64,000 nucleotides of DNA from the NCBI RefSeq assembly GCF_039904985.1, contig NZ_CP157005.1, positions 2,232,001 to 2,296,000 on the forward strand. Direction: 5' to 3'. Of the stretch, positions 37,271 to 49,261 are shown piece by piece. Numbering within the stretch: position 1 is the first letter of the stretch; every line of letters starts with the position of its first letter. The position numbers were made by a program, and so were the translations under genes. Below the pieces are notes generated by a model. It worked only from the letters and a program-made list of their open reading frames with translations, did no database searches and was not told the origin of the DNA. This DNA comes from Methylomonas sp. AM2-LC. Lineage in GTDB: Bacteria > Pseudomonadota > Gammaproteobacteria > Methylococcales > Methylomonadaceae.

Positions 37271-37337
37271 ATGGACTCCTCCCACCCCTAACGCTGTCAA
37301 ATGCACCAAGCAAATTAAACAGGGCAAAGAGGAGTCC
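37271..37337 (+). mobile_element. Left-end remnant of the IS1111-type element
   Basis: ATGGACTCCTCCCACCCCTA followed by ACGCTGTCAAATGCACC closely matches the leader of the intact element at 45293-45360 (ATGGACTTCTCCCCACCCCT, ACGGTGTCATAATGCACC). It ends in GAGGAGTCC, which perfectly pairs with GGACTCCTC at its start. There is no transposase. It is joined directly to a REP copy (TGCGTAGGATGTGG). Confidence 0.75.
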
Positions 37338-37340
37338 TGC

Positions 37341-37369
37341 GTAGGATGTGGTGAGGAACGAACCGCATC
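37341..37369 (+). repeat. REP palindrome, GGATGTGG subtype
   Basis: GTAGGATGTGGTGAGGAACG then AACCGCATC, touching the IS remnant. Confidence 0.72.
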
Positions 37370-43231: not shown

Positions 43232-45124
43232 CTAGGTGGTTTCCATCAAGGTGGGAGTTAGATTGTCCAATAAAAAATTGTCTACCCTTTGTGTTTCCGC
43301 TACCTTAACTTTATTATCTTGCAACAGCGGCAATTGCAGATGAAAGGTGGTACCTTTACCCACTGTTGATTCAAAAAACAATTTACCGCGATGTTTTTCC
43401 ACAATGATACTATGCGCCAAGCTTAAACCCTGCCCGGTACCTTTGCCCACGGGTTTTGTGGTAAAAAACAAATTAAACACTTTTTCCTTAATGGCTTCGG
43501 GAATACCTGCACCGTTATCAGCAATTTGGATTTCAACCGTATTTTCATCCAGTTTACGGGTACTGACTTTAATCAAGCCGCGTCCCTGCTGTTTTTCTTC
43601 AATAGCATGAGTAGCATTAATAATCAGATTCAGAAACACCTGATTTAATTCGCTGGCATAACACTCTATAAAGTCCACATTGTTTGCAAAATCTGTTTCC
43701 ACATCGGCTATATTTTTGTAACTGTTGCGGGTAATGGTCAAAGTGCTATTTAGAGCTTCATGCAGATTAATATTCATTAAAGTTAAGCCACTATCAATAT
43801 GAGAAAAAGTTTTCATGGCTTTTACAATTTCCGCCACTCTTTCCACACCTTCTTTGGCTTGCTTAATTGCTTTTGGGCTATCTTCCAGAATATAAGGCAG
43901 ATCAAAACGCTTATCCAGTGCCTGCAATGCCTGTTTAAAATCGGCATCGCCTAACTGATCCAAATCCTCGCGGAAAGCAATAATGTCGTTAAAATTTTCA
44001 TACACAGACATCAGATTGTCACCGATATACTGGATAGGCGTATTGATTTCATGCGCAATACCCGATGCCAACTGACCAATGGCTTCTAGTTTTTGTGCCT
44101 GATTTAATTGTGATTGCAGGGTTTTAGTTTCACTAATGTCATCTATTACGCCGGAAAAAAACACTTGTCCATGAATTTTCATGGGATTAACGCGCAGAGT
44201 AATCGGAAAATGCTCACCGTTTTTGCGTAGTGCTTCAAATTCAAGGCTAGTTGCCAATTGGCTTTTATCACCCGTCTTCAGATAATGTTGTAAATAGTTA
44301 TCCTGTTTATCACTCATAAATGCAGGTATTAAACTATTGATAGTCATGCCCAGTGCTTCTGACTGCTGATAGCCGAATATCAGTTCGGCGGCCTGATTAA
44401 AACTTAAAATTTCCGCATGTTTGTCTATGGTAATAATGGCGCTGGCGGCGGTATCCAGAATGGTATTTAATTGCGCAGTACGATCTCTTAGGTCGTTCAT
44501 TTTACTTTTAATAATCCGACTGGTTTTTGCAATAAACACCCCCAATATGCCCAAGATCATCGGTGTGGATAAAATCAAAATTAATCGATTCAGATACAGA
44601 GTGATACTGTTGTCTGTCATATCGTTCATTAAGTCCGCGCTCAGTATTTGTGCCAAATCGCTTAGCTCAGCAGTCAATGCAGCGTTTTTGCTGTCAAATT
44701 CAATCATGAGCAAATTGCCGGCTTCCATACCCTGATTGATATAATCCCAATCCATTTTTACACCAATCTCATACGTTGAAATAATTTCCCTTTCTATGGC
44801 ATCACAACGTACAGCTAAGTTTGGTAGGTCGGTACACAATTCCCGTAATTCAAATTGCGAAGCATGCAAGTGGCTGGCAGCAGCCTGAAAACCTTGCTGG
44901 CGATGTGTGGCAGCAACATTGGTTAAATACTGCTGTAGTTGGATTGCGTGATTGCGGATCTCCTTAACCAGCATCACGTTATGCTGCTGCTGTGTCAGTT
45001 CCTGTTGTTTACTTTCAATATCATTAAAGCTATACCACTGTAATATGGAAAACACTAAGCAAATAAACGCTATAATTGTAAAAATCGAGCTAAAAAAACG
45101 TTTTGTATTGAGTCTTTCAGCCAT
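43232..45124 (-). CDS. Membrane PAS histidine kinase
   Basis: 630 residues. TM1 (about 12-30) and TM2 (near 180-203) enclose a helical periplasmic region of about 150 residues. A PAS domain follows at 215-335 (ILDTAASAIITIDKHAEILS... FFSGVIDDISETKTLQ). The kinase H-box is GIAHEINTPIQYIGDN with His near 358, and the N (FLNLIINATHAIEE), G1 (DNGAGIP) and G2 (GKGTGQGLSLAHSII) boxes are intact. It belongs to the HEINTPIQYIGDN group, like the pseudo-receiver kinase at 38518. First gene of the signalling set; likely phosphodonor to the HDOD and HD-GYP regulators. Confidence 0.94.
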   Translation of the reverse strand: MAERLNTKRFFSSIFTIIAFICLVFSILQWYSFNDIESKQQELTQQQHNVMLVKEIRNHAIQLQQYLTNVAATHRQQGFQAAASHLHASQFELRELCTDLPNLAVRCDAIEREIISTYEIGVKMDWDYINQGMEAGNLLMIEFDSKNAALTAELSDLAQILSADLMNDMTDNSITLYLNRLILILSTPMILGILGVFIAKTSRIIKSKMNDLRDRTAQLNTILDTAASAIITIDKHAEILSFNQAAELIFGYQQSEALGMTINSLIPAFMSDKQDNYLQHYLKTGDKSQLATSLEFEALRKNGEHFPITLRVNPMKIHGQVFFSGVIDDISETKTLQSQLNQAQKLEAIGQLASGIAHEINTPIQYIGDNLMSVYENFNDIIAFREDLDQLGDADFKQALQALDKRFDLPYILEDSPKAIKQAKEGVERVAEIVKAMKTFSHIDSGLTLMNINLHEALNSTLTITRNSYKNIADVETDFANNVDFIECYASELNQVFLNLIINATHAIEEKQQGRGLIKVSTRKLDENTVEIQIADNGAGIPEAIKEKVFNLFFTTKPVGKGTGQGLSLAHSIIVEKHRGKLFFESTVGKGTTFHLQLPLLQDNKVKVAETQRVDNFLLDNLTPTLMETT

Positions 45125-45294
45125 GCGCAGCGATACCCTTGAACTGATGTTTTAATTTCGATTGAGTATAGCAGTTAATTTAATCTGCTAATGTGAGCTA
45201 GCTAAAACTTTGAAAGAAAATAACGGACAATTGATTGAGTATCGAAATCATAGAAATCGTTGTAAAAACAAACCACTGCGTAGGATGATGGCAT

Positions 45295-45360
45295 GGACTT
45301 CTCCCCACCCCTAACGGTGTCATAATGCACCTGGCAAATAAACAAGGGTAAGGAGAAATC
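45295..45360 (+). promoter_or_regulatory. Transposase leader hairpin overlapping the ribosome-binding site
   Basis: GGACTTCTCC (45295-45304) can pair with GGAGAAATCC (45351-45360) at 9 of 10 positions. The second arm contains the AGGAGA ribosome-binding site just before the ATG, so pairing would limit translation of the transposase. The arrangement is conserved in the remnant at 37271-37337. Confidence 0.55.
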
Positions 45361-45361
45361 C

Positions 45362-46396
45362 ATGATCAAGAATAACGTAATTGGTTTAGATTTAGCAAAA
45401 AACATTTTTCATCTGGTGAGTTTTAATGCTGAACTGAAACAGATTAAAAAGAAAGTAAAGCGAGCGGATTTATTGTCGTACATAGCGAACTTGCCAGTCA
45501 GTATCATTGGTATGGAAGCCTGTGGAGGCTCGCATTATTGGGCGCGAGAAATCAAGAAACTGGGGCATGAAGTGGTATTGCTGAATGCCCGTTATGTGAA
45601 AGGGTTTGTGGTGGGCAATAAAAATGATTATAACGATGCAGAGGCTATTTGGACGGCAACACACCAACCGAAAAGACGAACAGTTTCGCTTAAGACGCTT
45701 GAGCAGCAAGATATTCAAATGCTGCATCGATTGCGTCAAAGTACAGTGGATGAACGGACGGCGGTGGCGAATCGAATTCGGGGTTTTTTAGGTGAGTGGG
45801 GAATTGTGCTGCCTATAGGCATCAATCAGCTCAGAACGCACCTCACTGAAATTATTGAAGATGCTGAGAATGGTTTAAGCGTGATCAGTCGAAATCTGTT
45901 TGCCAAACAGCTTGAAAAACTCAAGGAATTGGATAAAACGATCAAAGAGTATGATAAGCAGATTGATCAACTCTGTATTCAGAGCGAATTATGTCAACGA
46001 TTTGTAGAGGTTCCAGGTATAGGAGCCATTACGGCTACTATGGCTGCATCGGATATAGGGGACGGTAAAGGCTATACCAAAAGCAAAAATTATGCAGCCA
46101 GTTTAGGCATTGTACCCAAACAGCACACGAGTGGTGACAAGGTGGTGTTGTTGGGTATCAGTAAACGAGGTAATGGCTATCTGCGAACTTTACTGATTCA
46201 CGGCGCCCGATCAGTCTTGAAAAACTGCCAAGGTAAAACAGACTCGCTAAGTCGATGGTTGCAGGCGCTAATTGAACGACGTGGTTTTAACAAAGCGGCC
46301 GTCGCACTGGCCAATAAAAATGCCCGAATTTTGTGGGTAATGGCTACACAAAATAAGAGGTATGAGGTTAGGTCCGCCGATGTAGTCATGTCGTAG
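45362..46396 (+). CDS. IS110-family transposase (IS1111 group)
   Basis: Recombinase of 344 residues. The N-terminal RuvC-like DEDD domain shows Asp9 (IGLDLAKN), Glu51 (GMEACGG) and the KNDYNDAEAI motif with two Asp. The C-terminal Tnp_20 domain has VPGIGAITATMAASDIGDG with the conserved Ser nearby (S in AASDIG or YTKSKNYAASLG) and ends in the typical KNARILWVMAT. It is full length and intact, so the element is probably active or recently so. AAGGAGA precedes the ATG by six bases. Enzymes of this family use a bridge RNA to choose the target. Confidence 0.95.
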   Translation: MIKNNVIGLDLAKNIFHLVSFNAELKQIKKKVKRADLLSYIANLPVSIIGMEACGGSHYWAREIKKLGHEVVLLNARYVKGFVVGNKNDYNDAEAIWTATHQPKRRTVSLKTLEQQDIQMLHRLRQSTVDERTAVANRIRGFLGEWGIVLPIGINQLRTHLTEIIEDAENGLSVISRNLFAKQLEKLKELDKTIKEYDKQIDQLCIQSELCQRFVEVPGIGAITATMAASDIGDGKGYTKSKNYAASLGIVPKQHTSGDKVVLLGISKRGNGYLRTLLIHGARSVLKNCQGKTDSLSRWLQALIERRGFNKAAVALANKNARILWVMATQNKRYEVRSADVVMS

Positions 46397-46406
46397 CGTG
46401 TAGGCC

Positions 46407-46479
46407 GGGTTATCCACGCCTTACCCAACACCTACACGTGATAGAAGGGTTCCGGTGTTGGGTAAGGCGTGGATAACCC
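46407..46479. repeat. 26-bp perfect inverted repeat directly after the transposase gene
   Basis: GGGTTATCCACGCCTTACCC continuing to AACACC (46407-46432) is matched by its exact reverse complement at 46454-46479 with a 21-base loop. A second pairing, CGTGTAGG (46397-46404) with CCTACACG (46431-46438), is mutually exclusive with it. The left part resembles a family C palindrome (GTAGGCCGGGTT...ACCCAACACCTAC). It may end the transposase transcript or fold with the bridge RNA. Confidence 0.7.
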
Positions 46480-46779
46480 TCAGTTGATATGATTAAAAGT
46501 GAATGGTGTAACACAGAGTAAAACAGATTGCGGAGGCAAGTAAATCCAATTGATGATAACAACAGGTCAGACCGGTGCTATTTATCCCGTTCAAGCACAT
46601 AGATTTTAAAAATCGTTAGGATGTTTGTGGAAATAGCGCGCGAATACGTTCATCAAGGTTCAGTGGTTAAATTAATCAACCTCTAATTGAAACCGAATAT
46701 ATGGCGGCAATCTTGATTACTTTTGAAATCATTCATTTTGGTAAAATTTGTCTTGCAATAGGGGGGAAGTCCATATATG

Positions 46780-47192
46780 TGGAGAGGCACGAACCGCATC
46801 ATAAAGCCTTAATTGCATGCGTCACCCGCAAAATCACGGCAAATACTACAATTGGATGAAGATAAAGAGGGTAGCTGTATTGGCTTGTAAACTGATGCAG
46901 TTCGCCGCCGCTCACCCCATCCAATACCTTGGTTGATAGGCTATACATCTTGGGTGTAACCTCACGCGGGCAAAATGGCCTTGCGTAGGATGTGGTGAGG
47001 CACGAACCGCATCATAAAGCCTTAATTGCATGCGTCACCCGCAAAATCGCGGCAAATACTACAATTGGATGAAGATAAAGAGGGTAGCTGTAAAACTGAT
47101 TTGGATGAAGATAAAGAGGGTAGCTGTAAAACTGATGCGGTTTACTGCTGCATAAAGCCTTAACGGCCAGCCACAATCACAAACTACACAGC
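46780..47192. repeat. REP cluster unit, first copy plus partial duplicate
   Basis: The unit from 46780 to about 47013 starts in the interrupted REP and contains CATAAAGCCTTAATTGCATG, AAGATAAAGAGGGTAGCTGT, an inverted REP (46891-46921), TGATAGGCTATACATCTTGG, and a complete forward REP (46984-47013). Part of it is then repeated (47014-47145). A related unit of about 230 bases lies at 48733-48970 without the IS. No gene. Confidence 0.75.
46984..47013 (+). repeat. REP palindrome, GGATGTGG subtype
   Basis: CGTAGGATGTGGTGAGGCAC then GAACCGCATC. It shows what the IS-interrupted copy looked like before insertion. Confidence 0.75.
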
Positions 47193-47885
47193 CTACCAAA
47201 TACCCGCTTGCAATTGTTTACCATCCGGTGCAAATAAAACCCCGTAACCTCTTTTCTCATTGTCGCGCCATTCGCCTTCATAGCGCTCGCCATTGGCATA
47301 CACCATCACCCCATAACCGTGTCGGTATCCATGGCGGAACTCACCCTCATAGCGGTTACCCTCTGGAAACAGATATTGACCGTAACCGCCAATTTCGCCA
47401 TCAATAAACACTCCCTGATAATGGTCACCATTGCCGCCATTAAACACCCCATAACCATTTTTACGACCCAGTAAAAAACCACCTTCGTAACGATTACCAT
47501 TAGGCCACGATAAGATCCCAAAGCCATGATAACCCTTATTATTCGGTCGTTTAGCCAGCCAGCCGCCCGCATAGCGATAACCCTCGCTATCGGTAATCAC
47601 GTTATACTTGCTATCGCCATTTAAAGCCTGAGCCAGTGCATTACGCGCGGCATCTGCCGCTTTTAAAGCCTGGCGGCTGGCTAATAAGGCCGCATTCTGT
47701 GCCAAGCGGGCTTTGTTAAGCGCTTGTTCCAGTGCTGGCAGCGGTTTGGGGCTGGCAACCGCTAGTGGTTCGTTAAGCAGAGCATGGCTGTTGAGCGCTG
47801 CATGTACCTCGTTAGACACTATGATTAAAGCATAAAGCACAATGAATGCAAATAGTTGGCAGATAAAGCGCCCTAATTTATTCAT
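47193..47885 (-). CDS. Exported MORN-repeat protein
   Basis: 230 residues from ATG at 47885; the frame's first start would be a TTG two codons earlier. A signal or anchor segment (FICQLFAFIVLYALIIVSNEVHA) is followed by an Ala-rich helical stretch with heptads (ALNKARLAQNAALLASRQAL). Then come about five MORN repeats (YRYAGGWL, YEGGFLLGRKNGYG, YQGVFIDGEIGGYG, YEGEFRHGYRHGYG, YEGEWRDNEKRGYG). MORN repeats bind lipids or proteins. ATG overlaps the stop of the aspartyl protease gene (ATGAATAA), so translation is coupled. Confidence 0.85.
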   Translation of the reverse strand: MNKLGRFICQLFAFIVLYALIIVSNEVHAALNSHALLNEPLAVASPKPLPALEQALNKARLAQNAALLASRQALKAADAARNALAQALNGDSKYNVITDSEGYRYAGGWLAKRPNNKGYHGFGILSWPNGNRYEGGFLLGRKNGYGVFNGGNGDHYQGVFIDGEIGGYGQYLFPEGNRYEGEFRHGYRHGYGVMVYANGERYEGEWRDNEKRGYGVLFAPDGKQLQAGIW

Positions 47886-48483
47886 TATCAAAACGGGTCA
47901 CACAATGTTTTTCAGTATCACAGACCACCTTGCTCTTAATAGGTCTAGATGGGGTATCGTCTATGCTCTCAGGCGTCGTCAAATCGCTCGGTATGGAAAC
48001 GCCGGATTCATTGCTCTGATTAAGGCTGAGCGTCAAGGTATCGGCTGTTTGCGTAATTTTAAAATGCTTTAGGGTATTCATACCCACCAGCACTTCCTTT
48101 AAATACTGGCTGACATGCGCATCAATATTCTTAATTTCATAAGCGCCGATTTGCATGCTTTTCAGCGTGGTGGTTTTGGCAAAGGATCGTCCGCCAGCGG
48201 TGGCAATTTCGATCTGATGACCTAACGATAAACCCGCTTGCGCCGCCAGGTTCATCGGGATGGTAGTTATAGTAGCGCCGGTGTCAATCACATACGGCAT
48301 AGAAACCTTGTTAATCAACAAGGTACCGCGAAAATGCCCATTGCCATCAGCATGTAACACCATTTGCCCCGCTTCCGCGCCAGGTGTCATTTCAACGGCA
48401 TAGCCTACTGCACAGATAAACAGCAAACTAATATATTTTAATAGGGAAAAGACCGCGTTTATTTGATTTTTTTGTTTAATCAT
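47878..48483 (-). CDS. Exported retropepsin-like aspartyl protease
   Basis: 201 residues. An N-terminal membrane or signal segment lies at about 12-29 (LLKYISLLFICAVGYAVE). A single retropepsin-like domain follows (about 45-155): the catalytic motif VIDTGATITTIP with Asp in DTG, and the later ILE-type strands ending in VGMNTLKHFKI, as in bacterial clan AA proteases that dimerise. The C-terminal tail has two Cys (VCDTEKHC) close to the end. Overlap with the MORN gene implies a two-gene operon. Substrate unknown. Confidence 0.88.
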   Translation of the reverse strand: MIKQKNQINAVFSLLKYISLLFICAVGYAVEMTPGAEAGQMVLHADGNGHFRGTLLINKVSMPYVIDTGATITTIPMNLAAQAGLSLGHQIEIATAGGRSFAKTTTLKSMQIGAYEIKNIDAHVSQYLKEVLVGMNTLKHFKITQTADTLTLSLNQSNESGVSIPSDLTTPESIDDTPSRPIKSKVVCDTEKHCVTRFDNE

Positions 48484-48540
48484 TAATAAGGGACAGGCCA
48501 GAATGGCAATTACTTTAAGTGTATAGTTTGTTTAAATCAA

Positions 48541-48583
48541 TGGACGGTACGAAGCGTAGCGCATCAGTCACGACTGATACACC
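48541..48583 (+). repeat. Dispersed palindromic repeat, family B
   Basis: GGTACGAAGCGTAGCGCATC then AGTCACGACTGATACACC; divergent copy upstream of the aspartyl protease gene. Confidence 0.5.
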
Positions 48584-48732
48584 ACCCAGCGTCTGCACAG
48601 GCTGTAAAACTTGCCCTTTATACTAAATAATACACGTGTAAGTGTTGTTTGCGATAAGTTATTAATCGAGGCAAAAGATTTTTTAAGGCCGCTGTTAAAA
48701 AAACCTTCAAATCCAGACTCGCAAGGCACCTG

Positions 48733-48970
48733 CCAAAATGTGTTGAGGCACCAACCGCATCATAGCCTTAATCATATATGTCACCCGCAAAATCACGGCA
48801 AAGACTATAATTGAATGATGATAAAGAGGGTAGCTGTATTGACTGTAAACTGATGCGGTTCGCTGCCGCTCACCACATCCAATGCCTTGGTAGATAAGCT
48901 ATACATCTTGCCTTTAACCTTATGGCCTTGCGTAGGATGTGGTGAGGCTTGAACCGCATCATAAAGCTTA
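48733..48970. repeat. REP cluster unit, second copy (no IS)
   Basis: Order: degenerate forward REP (ATGTGTTGAGGCACCAACCG), GTCACCCGCAAAATCACGGC, GATAAAGAGGGTAGCTGTAT, inverted REP (48851-48880, TGATGCGGTTCGCTGCCGCT), GATAAGCTATACATCTTG, forward REP (48932-48960). It matches 46780-47013 element by element in direct orientation. It is the uninterrupted version of the site where the IS sits. Confidence 0.75.
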
Positions 48971-49051
48971 AACCCACCCGCATAAACCTCAAAATCAACC
49001 CCAGCATTAATCGCGGCAAAAGTTTTTTATCCGGCAGCTACCGAAAACCCG

Positions 49052-49261
49052 TTAATCAATTATCCGGCTCTGAATGCGTAAAGGCACCTTGTTGGCAGGT
49101 TCGTGTGCTTTCAGATAATTCTTGGCATAACCTTTGGCTTTATCTGCATCCTCACGTAGCGTGTATTCTTTATCCAATTCAGACAACGATTTAGATAATT
49201 CACTCAGCCGTATCCATTTATTTGGCCCGATTTTCGCGTGTAATGTATAGAGAGTCATCAT
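49052..49261 (-). CDS. Small hydrophilic protein of unknown function
   Basis: 69 residues, protein-like composition (LHAKIGPNKWIRLSELSKSL, TLREDADKAKGYAKNYLKAH). No signal, no Cys. Only a weak ribosome-binding site can be seen. It lies between the REP cluster and the riboswitch region and has no partner. I do not recognise it. The amphipathic pattern argues that it is real. Confidence 0.5.
   Translation of the reverse strand: MMTLYTLHAKIGPNKWIRLSELSKSLSELDKEYTLREDADKAKGYAKNYLKAHEPANKVPLRIQSRIID

Follow-up and report, generated by a model that had tools for sequence, protein, structure and literature searches.

The window (the whole 64,000-nucleotide stretch analyzed here) carries an IS1111 element that is, in all probability, steered into GTAG-REPs by its own 3′ RNA, with two target guides and a probable donor loop. 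The grounds computed here are the anatomy of the element, its junctions at 11 loci, a conserved RNA structure, and guide-target agreement over 48 elements. RNA binding by the transposase, the circle, and the recombination steps would follow what has been published on relatives. The RNA-guided machinery is of the kind described in 2024, and the element itself is new.

Since ATG is present on either side of the joint, a rule is needed to place the exact ends of the element. According to the accessible text of PMC11187229, IS1111 elements extend 7 nt outside the left repeat and 3 nt outside the right one. Applying this published rule delimited the element to 45286-46777, with the layout TGATGGC, repeat, interior, repeat, ATA. 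Tips of these lengths, without target duplication, fit all 11 loci and the intact REP paralogues.

45286..46777, + strand: IS1111-type insertion sequence of 1,492 bp, its ends placed with the 7 nt / 3 nt rule
45286..45292, + strand: left tip TGATGGC; joined to the right end it would give the circle junction ATA|TGATGGC
45293..45306, + strand: left subterminal inverted repeat, 13/14 match
45362..46396, + strand: DEDD transposase, 344 aa, PF01548 and PF02371
46407..46479, + strand: perfect 26-bp hairpin directly 3′ of the transposase stop codon, arms 46407-46432 and 46454-46479
46761..46774, + strand: right subterminal inverted repeat, 13/14 match
46775..46777, + strand: right tip ATA

The first-pass annotation had described an IS1111-type element with terminal repeats alike at 13 of 14 positions and with about 380 non-coding bases 3′ and about 75 bases 5′ of the transposase, and this description holds in all its parts. 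Both IS110-type domains of the DEDD transposase exceeded their cut-offs (PF01548, 2.9e-12; PF02371, 4e-17), the 14-nt subterminal repeats are 93% identical (11-13 bp is usual in IS1111), the tips fit, and a long non-coding stretch of 381 nt follows the gene versus 76 nt upstream of it. Among solved structures the transposase found weak matches alone (ISCro4, E 0.0013; IS621, E 0.0047), and its nearest named relatives are Methylobacter and Methyloprofundus records, which makes a Methylococcales host likely. The hairpin behind the gene has a fold z of -9.87. Among ten aligned elements it is present solely in the window element and its nearest relatives L167, L172, and L178, with a weaker form in L177 judged by eye. 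No T-run was found after it, and it would possibly separate the transposase mRNA from the guide RNA. Read outward, the right end (46761-46779) is GGGGGGAAGTCCATATATG, which resembles a ribosome-binding site and ATG directed at the flank.

The element is flanked by GCGTAGGATG on the left and TGGAGAGGCACGAACC on the right, which confirms that it divides a REP into halves, as had been claimed, with intact REPs of the same type nearby.

45280..45285, + strand: left half of the target REP, GTAGGA, with the GTAG tag of the intact REPs
46778..46800, + strand: right half of the target REP, TGTGGAGAGGCACGAACCGCATC
46985..47013, + strand: intact REP, same type as the target
48932..48960, + strand: intact REP, same type as the target

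The split REP reads GTAGGA|TGTGG, and the reconstructed empty site GTAGGA|TGTGGAGAGGCACGAACCGCATC is one base off the intact REP at 46985-47013 (GTAGGATGTGGTGAGGCACGAACCGCATC). Furthermore, an unbroken paralogue of the site lies 213 bases downstream, where 46990-47092 shares 98% identity with the 103 bases at 46777-46879. A tandem duplication of a 36-nt unit (47065-47136) adjoins this REP cluster. When 44300-45285 was searched against 37 genomes (the own genome and 36 relatives), no orthologous empty site was found; five genomes besides the own one gave short weak matches within the neighbouring gene, none of which reached the site. Genome-wide, the pattern GTAGGATGTGN{10,24}GCATC (also given as GTAGGATGTG...GCATC) occurs 20 times versus 0 for its reverse, and there are 63 intact TAGGATGTG sites, within or outside REPs, versus 14 for the reversed pattern. 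The target, a multicopy palindrome with a GTAG head in a genome with Y1 transposase genes (10 Y1_Tnp matches), belongs with the GTAG-tagged REPs. The accessible part of a paper on GTAG-tagged repeats (PMC3733652) contains no mention that we found of this host group or REP. Eight near-identical REPs are of a GTAGGATGTGCCAACC...GCATC type (G000 C1:2579476, 2054887, and others), two of them 0.1 and 1.5 kb from Y1_Tnp matches, and this subtype is absent from the 11 occupied sites.

A scan of the whole genome (5.39 Mb, three contigs) recovered 11 insertion loci with common ends and junctions. Nine of them hold near-complete copies, L011/L013 has an internal deletion, and L010/L012/L014 is rearranged. 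Six of the nine near-complete copies, the window's included, are without difference over 45281-46781 (which enters the flanks by a few bases), while L007 has two differences (one in the flank) and L009 three; in L008 an indel leaves the gene in two frames. AGGA|TGT is found at 11/11 loci, and REP palindromes, judged by eye from the flanks, at 10/11. The subtypes at these ten sites are TGTGCYGA (five), TGTGG (two), and TGTGTTGAG, TGTGTCGA, and TGTACTGA (one each). The most decayed of them still match a clear REP flank at 40/60 (L006) and 49/60 (L010) positions, against maxima of 24 and 29 in 1,000 shuffles. The recurrence of the same junctions at 11 loci and the 20-to-0 excess of the REP pattern argue that the junctions are not due to chance.

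At the rearranged locus (L010/L012, G000 C1:178194-180269) one copy lacks 66 bases of the hairpin region (window-equivalent 46401-46466) and adjoins a partial second copy, from IS base 847 onward, at the exact right-end joint ATA|TG. This layout is what would be expected if the element had inserted into its own gene and the direct repeats had then recombined, and the deletion at L010 likely arose by homologous recombination following the second insertion. By eye, the putative self-insertion site CACGAG|TGGTGACA is a poor match to the guides. Within the window, 37271-37343 is the lone left end of a related IS1111 element, detected by the leader model (32.5 bits, E 1.7e-6). It runs directly into the intact REP 37341-37369 and is a decayed insertion, without a match to the guide-RNA model.

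A total of 100 loci were scanned for ends (20, one of them the own genome's second element, plus 80). Clean ATGG...CCAT ends were present in 61 of them, or 62 with the window element, and subtracting ten further same-genome copies left 52 elements. The 3′ regions of the relatives align into a strongly conserved core with two hypervariable stretches. RNAalifold on 49 of the 52 elements (the own element, L036, and L076 were left out) gave 23 pairs, 19 of which show compensatory change, and the covariation was 0.603 as compared with at most 0.107 when partners were slid by 1-3 columns. A covariance model built without the window element then located the RNA at 46561-46719 (90.5 bits, E 4e-21), with the next match within the 64 kb at E 4.1. 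Both outcomes bear out the proposal that the 3′ region holds a bridge-type RNA with a conserved structure. Further matches of the model fall in L001-L012, the set that spans all 11 loci, and in L183, one of the sequences used to build it; no guide RNA was found by it in the relic L015. The model's matches lie solely 3′ of the gene and thus not upstream as in the IS110 group (IS621 type). An Rfam scan of 45000-49200 with E up to 1 returned no bridge-type match and one unrelated low match. Folded as a single sequence, 46561-46720 is no better than shuffles (z 0.21; 117/200 equally good), and the target-loop part alone gives a weak z of -1.46; the structure claim therefore rests on the covariation. 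The hypervariable guide stretches flank a small hairpin within one internal loop.

46561..46720, + strand: predicted bridge/seeker RNA core, covariance-model match 46561-46719
46592..46599, + strand: predicted right target guide CAAGCACA, reverse complement TGTGCTTG, corresponding to the target right half from the core onward
46616..46623, + strand: predicted left target guide TTAGGATG, corresponding to the target left half and core (G/A)TAGGA|TG

The top-strand complement (46592-46599) precedes the bottom-strand complement (46616-46623). In the available text of PMC11187229, IS1111 is described with this order, the guide for the right half coming first, and an IS110 element with the opposite one. 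At the 11 sites the left guide matches 7, 7, 7, 7, 7, 7, 7, 6, 7, 7, and 7 of 8 bases, and the right guide 4-6 of 8. The first-pass annotation had proposed that the element is programmed for the local REP family. For the left guide (7/8 at the window site) this stands; the right guide (TGTGCTTG versus TGTGGAGA) matches only 4/8 there, and its best sites are the TGTGCT sites elsewhere in the chromosome (L003, L008, and L011, 6/8 each). Among 260,744 background windows from 39 loci, 0.067% score at least 10 of 14, a fraction inflated by the fetching of 30 of these loci via the REP pattern, while the 11 sites score 9-11.

Guide-target agreement was assessed over 48 of the 52 elements, the other four being without full flanks; the right guides of L034, L043, and L054 are one base out of register and were scored unadjusted. 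Left guides matched their own target at 6.52 of 8 bases versus 3.22 for the targets of others, and right guides at 6.17 versus 2.91, and in neither case did any of 20,000 permutations do as well. Since relatives share sequence, the permutation was repeated inside eight clades comprising 39 of the 48 elements. There, own targets scored 9.15 of 12 non-core bases versus 5.99 (top permutation 7.72; 0/20,000). The window's own clade contributed least (7.83 of 12 own versus 6.37 cross), as the targets of its members are alike. Poor right-side matches were seen in L173, L175, and L180 (2/8 each), L083 (1/8), and L061 (2/8). In the closely related L053, L066, L072, and L079, altered right guides match altered targets at 7, 8, 7, and 6 of 8 bases. 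Judged from these sequences, such guide changes represent natural reprogramming, which the accessible text of PMC11187229 also reports for ISEc11 and ISXne4. One relative (G035) has two different IS1111 elements with guides TTAGGATG (L167-L171) and TTAGGGCG (L179-L181), and by eye 2/5 copies of the one and 3/3 of the other lie in GTAG-headed palindromes. A second IS1111 element, about 46% identical, is also present in the own genome (L183, G000 C1:98164-99144). Its guides are TGGAACTG and AGACCCCA, and its target GGGAAC|TGACCCCG is unlike that of the window element; two relatives (L182 and L184) are inserted at similar sites.

Two other accounts of these insertions were weighed. On the one hand, the transposase itself might recognize the REP, either as a folded palindrome or via protein-DNA contacts, so that the guide match would be incidental. 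We consider this very improbable, even though ten of the 11 copies lie in palindromes and the right guide matches just 4-5 of 8 bases at most REPs (8/11 sites). Where guides differ between related transposases, the targets differ accordingly, also within clades, and many relatives' sites have no strong palindrome beside the joint. Moreover, the sole non-REP site of the genome, AAGGA|TGTGCT at L008, lacks a REP palindrome (best stem match 3/8; 21/60 identity to the REP flank, where shuffles reach 25), yet fits both guides at 6/8, which favours guide sequence over REP shape. The same site bears on the expectation that copies in unrelated sequences would speak against a programmed target: the single exception among the 11 is one that the guides fit. 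On the other hand, the copies could have spread by recombination among REPs or by segment duplication rather than by 11 separate transpositions. The copies are nearly identical, REPs provide homology, and homologous recombination likely made the deletion at L010, but the flanks past the REP differ on both sides among the 11 loci and the junctions are base-exact, which makes this account less probable still.

Guidance by the 3′ RNA may also extend to the element's own ends, as the second domain of the RNA has YCATYR and ATATA(T/C)GG, similar to the left tip and to the joined ends.

46650..46655, + strand: predicted donor guide TCATCA, complement TGATGA (left tip TGATGG; 0/20,000 permutations)
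46697..46704, + strand: predicted donor/core guide ATATATGG, corresponding to the joined ends ATA|TG
46753..46758, + strand: TTGCAA, -35 of a predicted circle-junction promoter, followed by a 17-nt spacer and TATGAT (46776-46777 joined to 45286-45289)

The RNA base agrees with the first (core) base of the left tip in 47/51 elements, and in 42/46 on the tree. Switches on the transposase tree were two independent ones on well-supported branches and five on all branches, with none discordant; with so few independent changes, this agreement is not independent proof. The available text of PMC11208160 proposes, on inspection of six elements from the two groups, that the IS1111 bridge RNA is bispecific, and the donor pattern would fit this. 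Across the joint, TTGCNN and TANNAT separated by 16-18 bases occur in 48/51 elements (L066, L172, and L182 do not fit this simple scan), pointing to a possible junction promoter in nearly all of them. For ISEc11 a circle-junction promoter is reported in the accessible text of PMC11187229.

Taken as a mechanism, the RNA at 46561-46720 would be bound by the transposase and would steer it. Of the two guides, held in one loop, TTAGGATG would pair with the bottom strand across the left half and core of the target, and CAAGCACA would pair with the top strand in the right half. Together they spell TTAGGA|TGTGCT, a sequence similar to that at the 5′ end of the many GTAG-tagged REPs in the genome. For the second loop, the probable pairing partner is the element ends in their joined form (ATA|TGATGG). 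Circularization would build a promoter across the joint, and recombination at the shared TG core would split the REP past its sixth base without target duplication.

The choice of GTAG-headed sites recurs among relatives. In elements with 20-nt left flanks, GTAG begins exactly six bases before the insertion point in 8/50, every other offset having 0 or 1, and L045 is a ninth element with GTAG at that phase in a shorter flank. A palindrome is visible to the right in most of the nine, L069 being ambiguous. The transposase tree covers 46 of the 52 elements (six with in-frame stops were excluded) and was made by a quick method with SH-aLRT as its sole support. On its 46 rows the GTAG label changes eight times, at least five of them on well-supported branches, and it clusters no more than in shuffles (215/500 as low). 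Together, these results show that elements with different guides repeatedly took GTAG-headed sites at one phase. The left guide covers the TAG of the shared head and the following bases and the right guide covers the subtype-specific stem, so that a switch of REP subtype would need few changes.

The left end of the element holds a second candidate structure.

45293..45367, + strand: predicted structured left-end leader, formed by pairing of the left repeat with the region of the ribosome-binding site and start, around the inner hairpin P2
45352..45363, + strand: GGAGAAATCCAT, a third subterminal-repeat copy in right orientation, which overlaps the start codon

We tentatively propose, at odds that we put somewhat below even, that IS1111 elements have a second structured RNA, a left-end leader in which the left repeat, in itself a signal for the DNA end, would also act as an anti-ribosome-binding-site strand and close over the start of the transposase gene, with one or two small hairpins enclosed. 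The leader is 75 nt long here and up to about 100 nt among aligned relatives. In 52 elements the start region matches its own left repeat at 9.94 of 13 bases, versus 8.66 for the repeats of others and 7.29 for shuffled regions (0/20,000 permutations). The leader alignment has 46 rows, the own one included (L036, L076, L079, L182, L183, and L184 were left out, the last three for long leaders), and the window row was in the training set of leader model R2. A hand-drawn three-helix model (repeat and start region; GGYRT hairpin; GATGG-CCATC hairpin, missing in the window's clade) pairs in 87.8% of cells, with a covariation of 0.283 versus a maximum of 0.108 for slid partners. Of the five measures, two fell within shuffles (pairs with change on both sides, 113/500 as high; further pair types, 388/500). 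Unprompted, RNAalifold proposes P2 (the GGYRT hairpin) only, and the window leader folds with z -3.34. On well-supported branches, P2 shows 3/3 independent agreements. At repeat position 5 the A/T switch occurred a single time on the tree, so the agreement of P1 with its start-region partner is inherited and the outer helix is less well supported than the inner hairpins. Alternatively, the transposase-RNA complex could bind the third repeat copy as an operator or decoy. Control by a leader has a precedent in the IS110 family, given that the transposase mRNA leader of ISPpu9 (IS110/IS492, Pseudomonas putida) is reported, in the available text of PMC8450116, to bury the ribosome-binding site. 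ISPpu9 resembles the window element in this respect, the leader here being predicted, and in its REP target. It differs in its group and, according to the same text, in having a leader of about 245 nt and an antisense RNA, whereas the 75-nt leader here would use the subterminal repeat itself. We found no description of such a leader in IS1111 within the open-licence literature, including the accessible parts of PMC11187229 and PMC11208160, which does not establish its absence from print.

One of the closest known systems is ISPa11 (IS1111, Pseudomonas aeruginosa), whose insertion point is reported in the available texts of PMC1525189 and PMC11187229 to lie between bases six and seven of the REP. 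Like the window element it has a REP target, a 3′ seekRNA, and a top-strand match before the bottom-strand one (PMC11187229, in its accessible text), in another host and another REP sequence. Judged from this description, its phase is apparently that of GTAGGA|TG here. ISEc11 (IS1111) likewise has a 3′ non-coding region, a seekRNA, and a circle with a junction promoter, without target duplication, the circle being a prediction here; it differs in its short linear target sequence (PMC11187229, same text). IS621 (IS110 group), in the accessible text of PMC11208160, also has an RNA-guided DEDD transposase and inserts in E. coli REPs, but its RNA lies 5′ of the gene and its subterminal repeat is 2-3 bp. 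In that text, its reported target is ATCAGGCCTAC, with GTAG on the opposite strand. We take its core position to place the cut elsewhere in the REP than that of the window element.

The leader, if confirmed, would show how the amount of the enzyme is kept down by the element itself: control of translation would be coupled to the identity of the ends, so that read-through or circle-junction transcripts would yield little transposase. The genome also offers a compact natural test of RNA-guided DNA insertion, with one guide, 11 sites, and many unused candidates (63 TAGGATGTG), and since used and unused sites for one guide stand in one genome, mismatch tolerance is directly readable. Finally, the repeated return to GTAG-headed sites suggests a way for a programmable element to settle on targets that are repeated and mostly intergenic.
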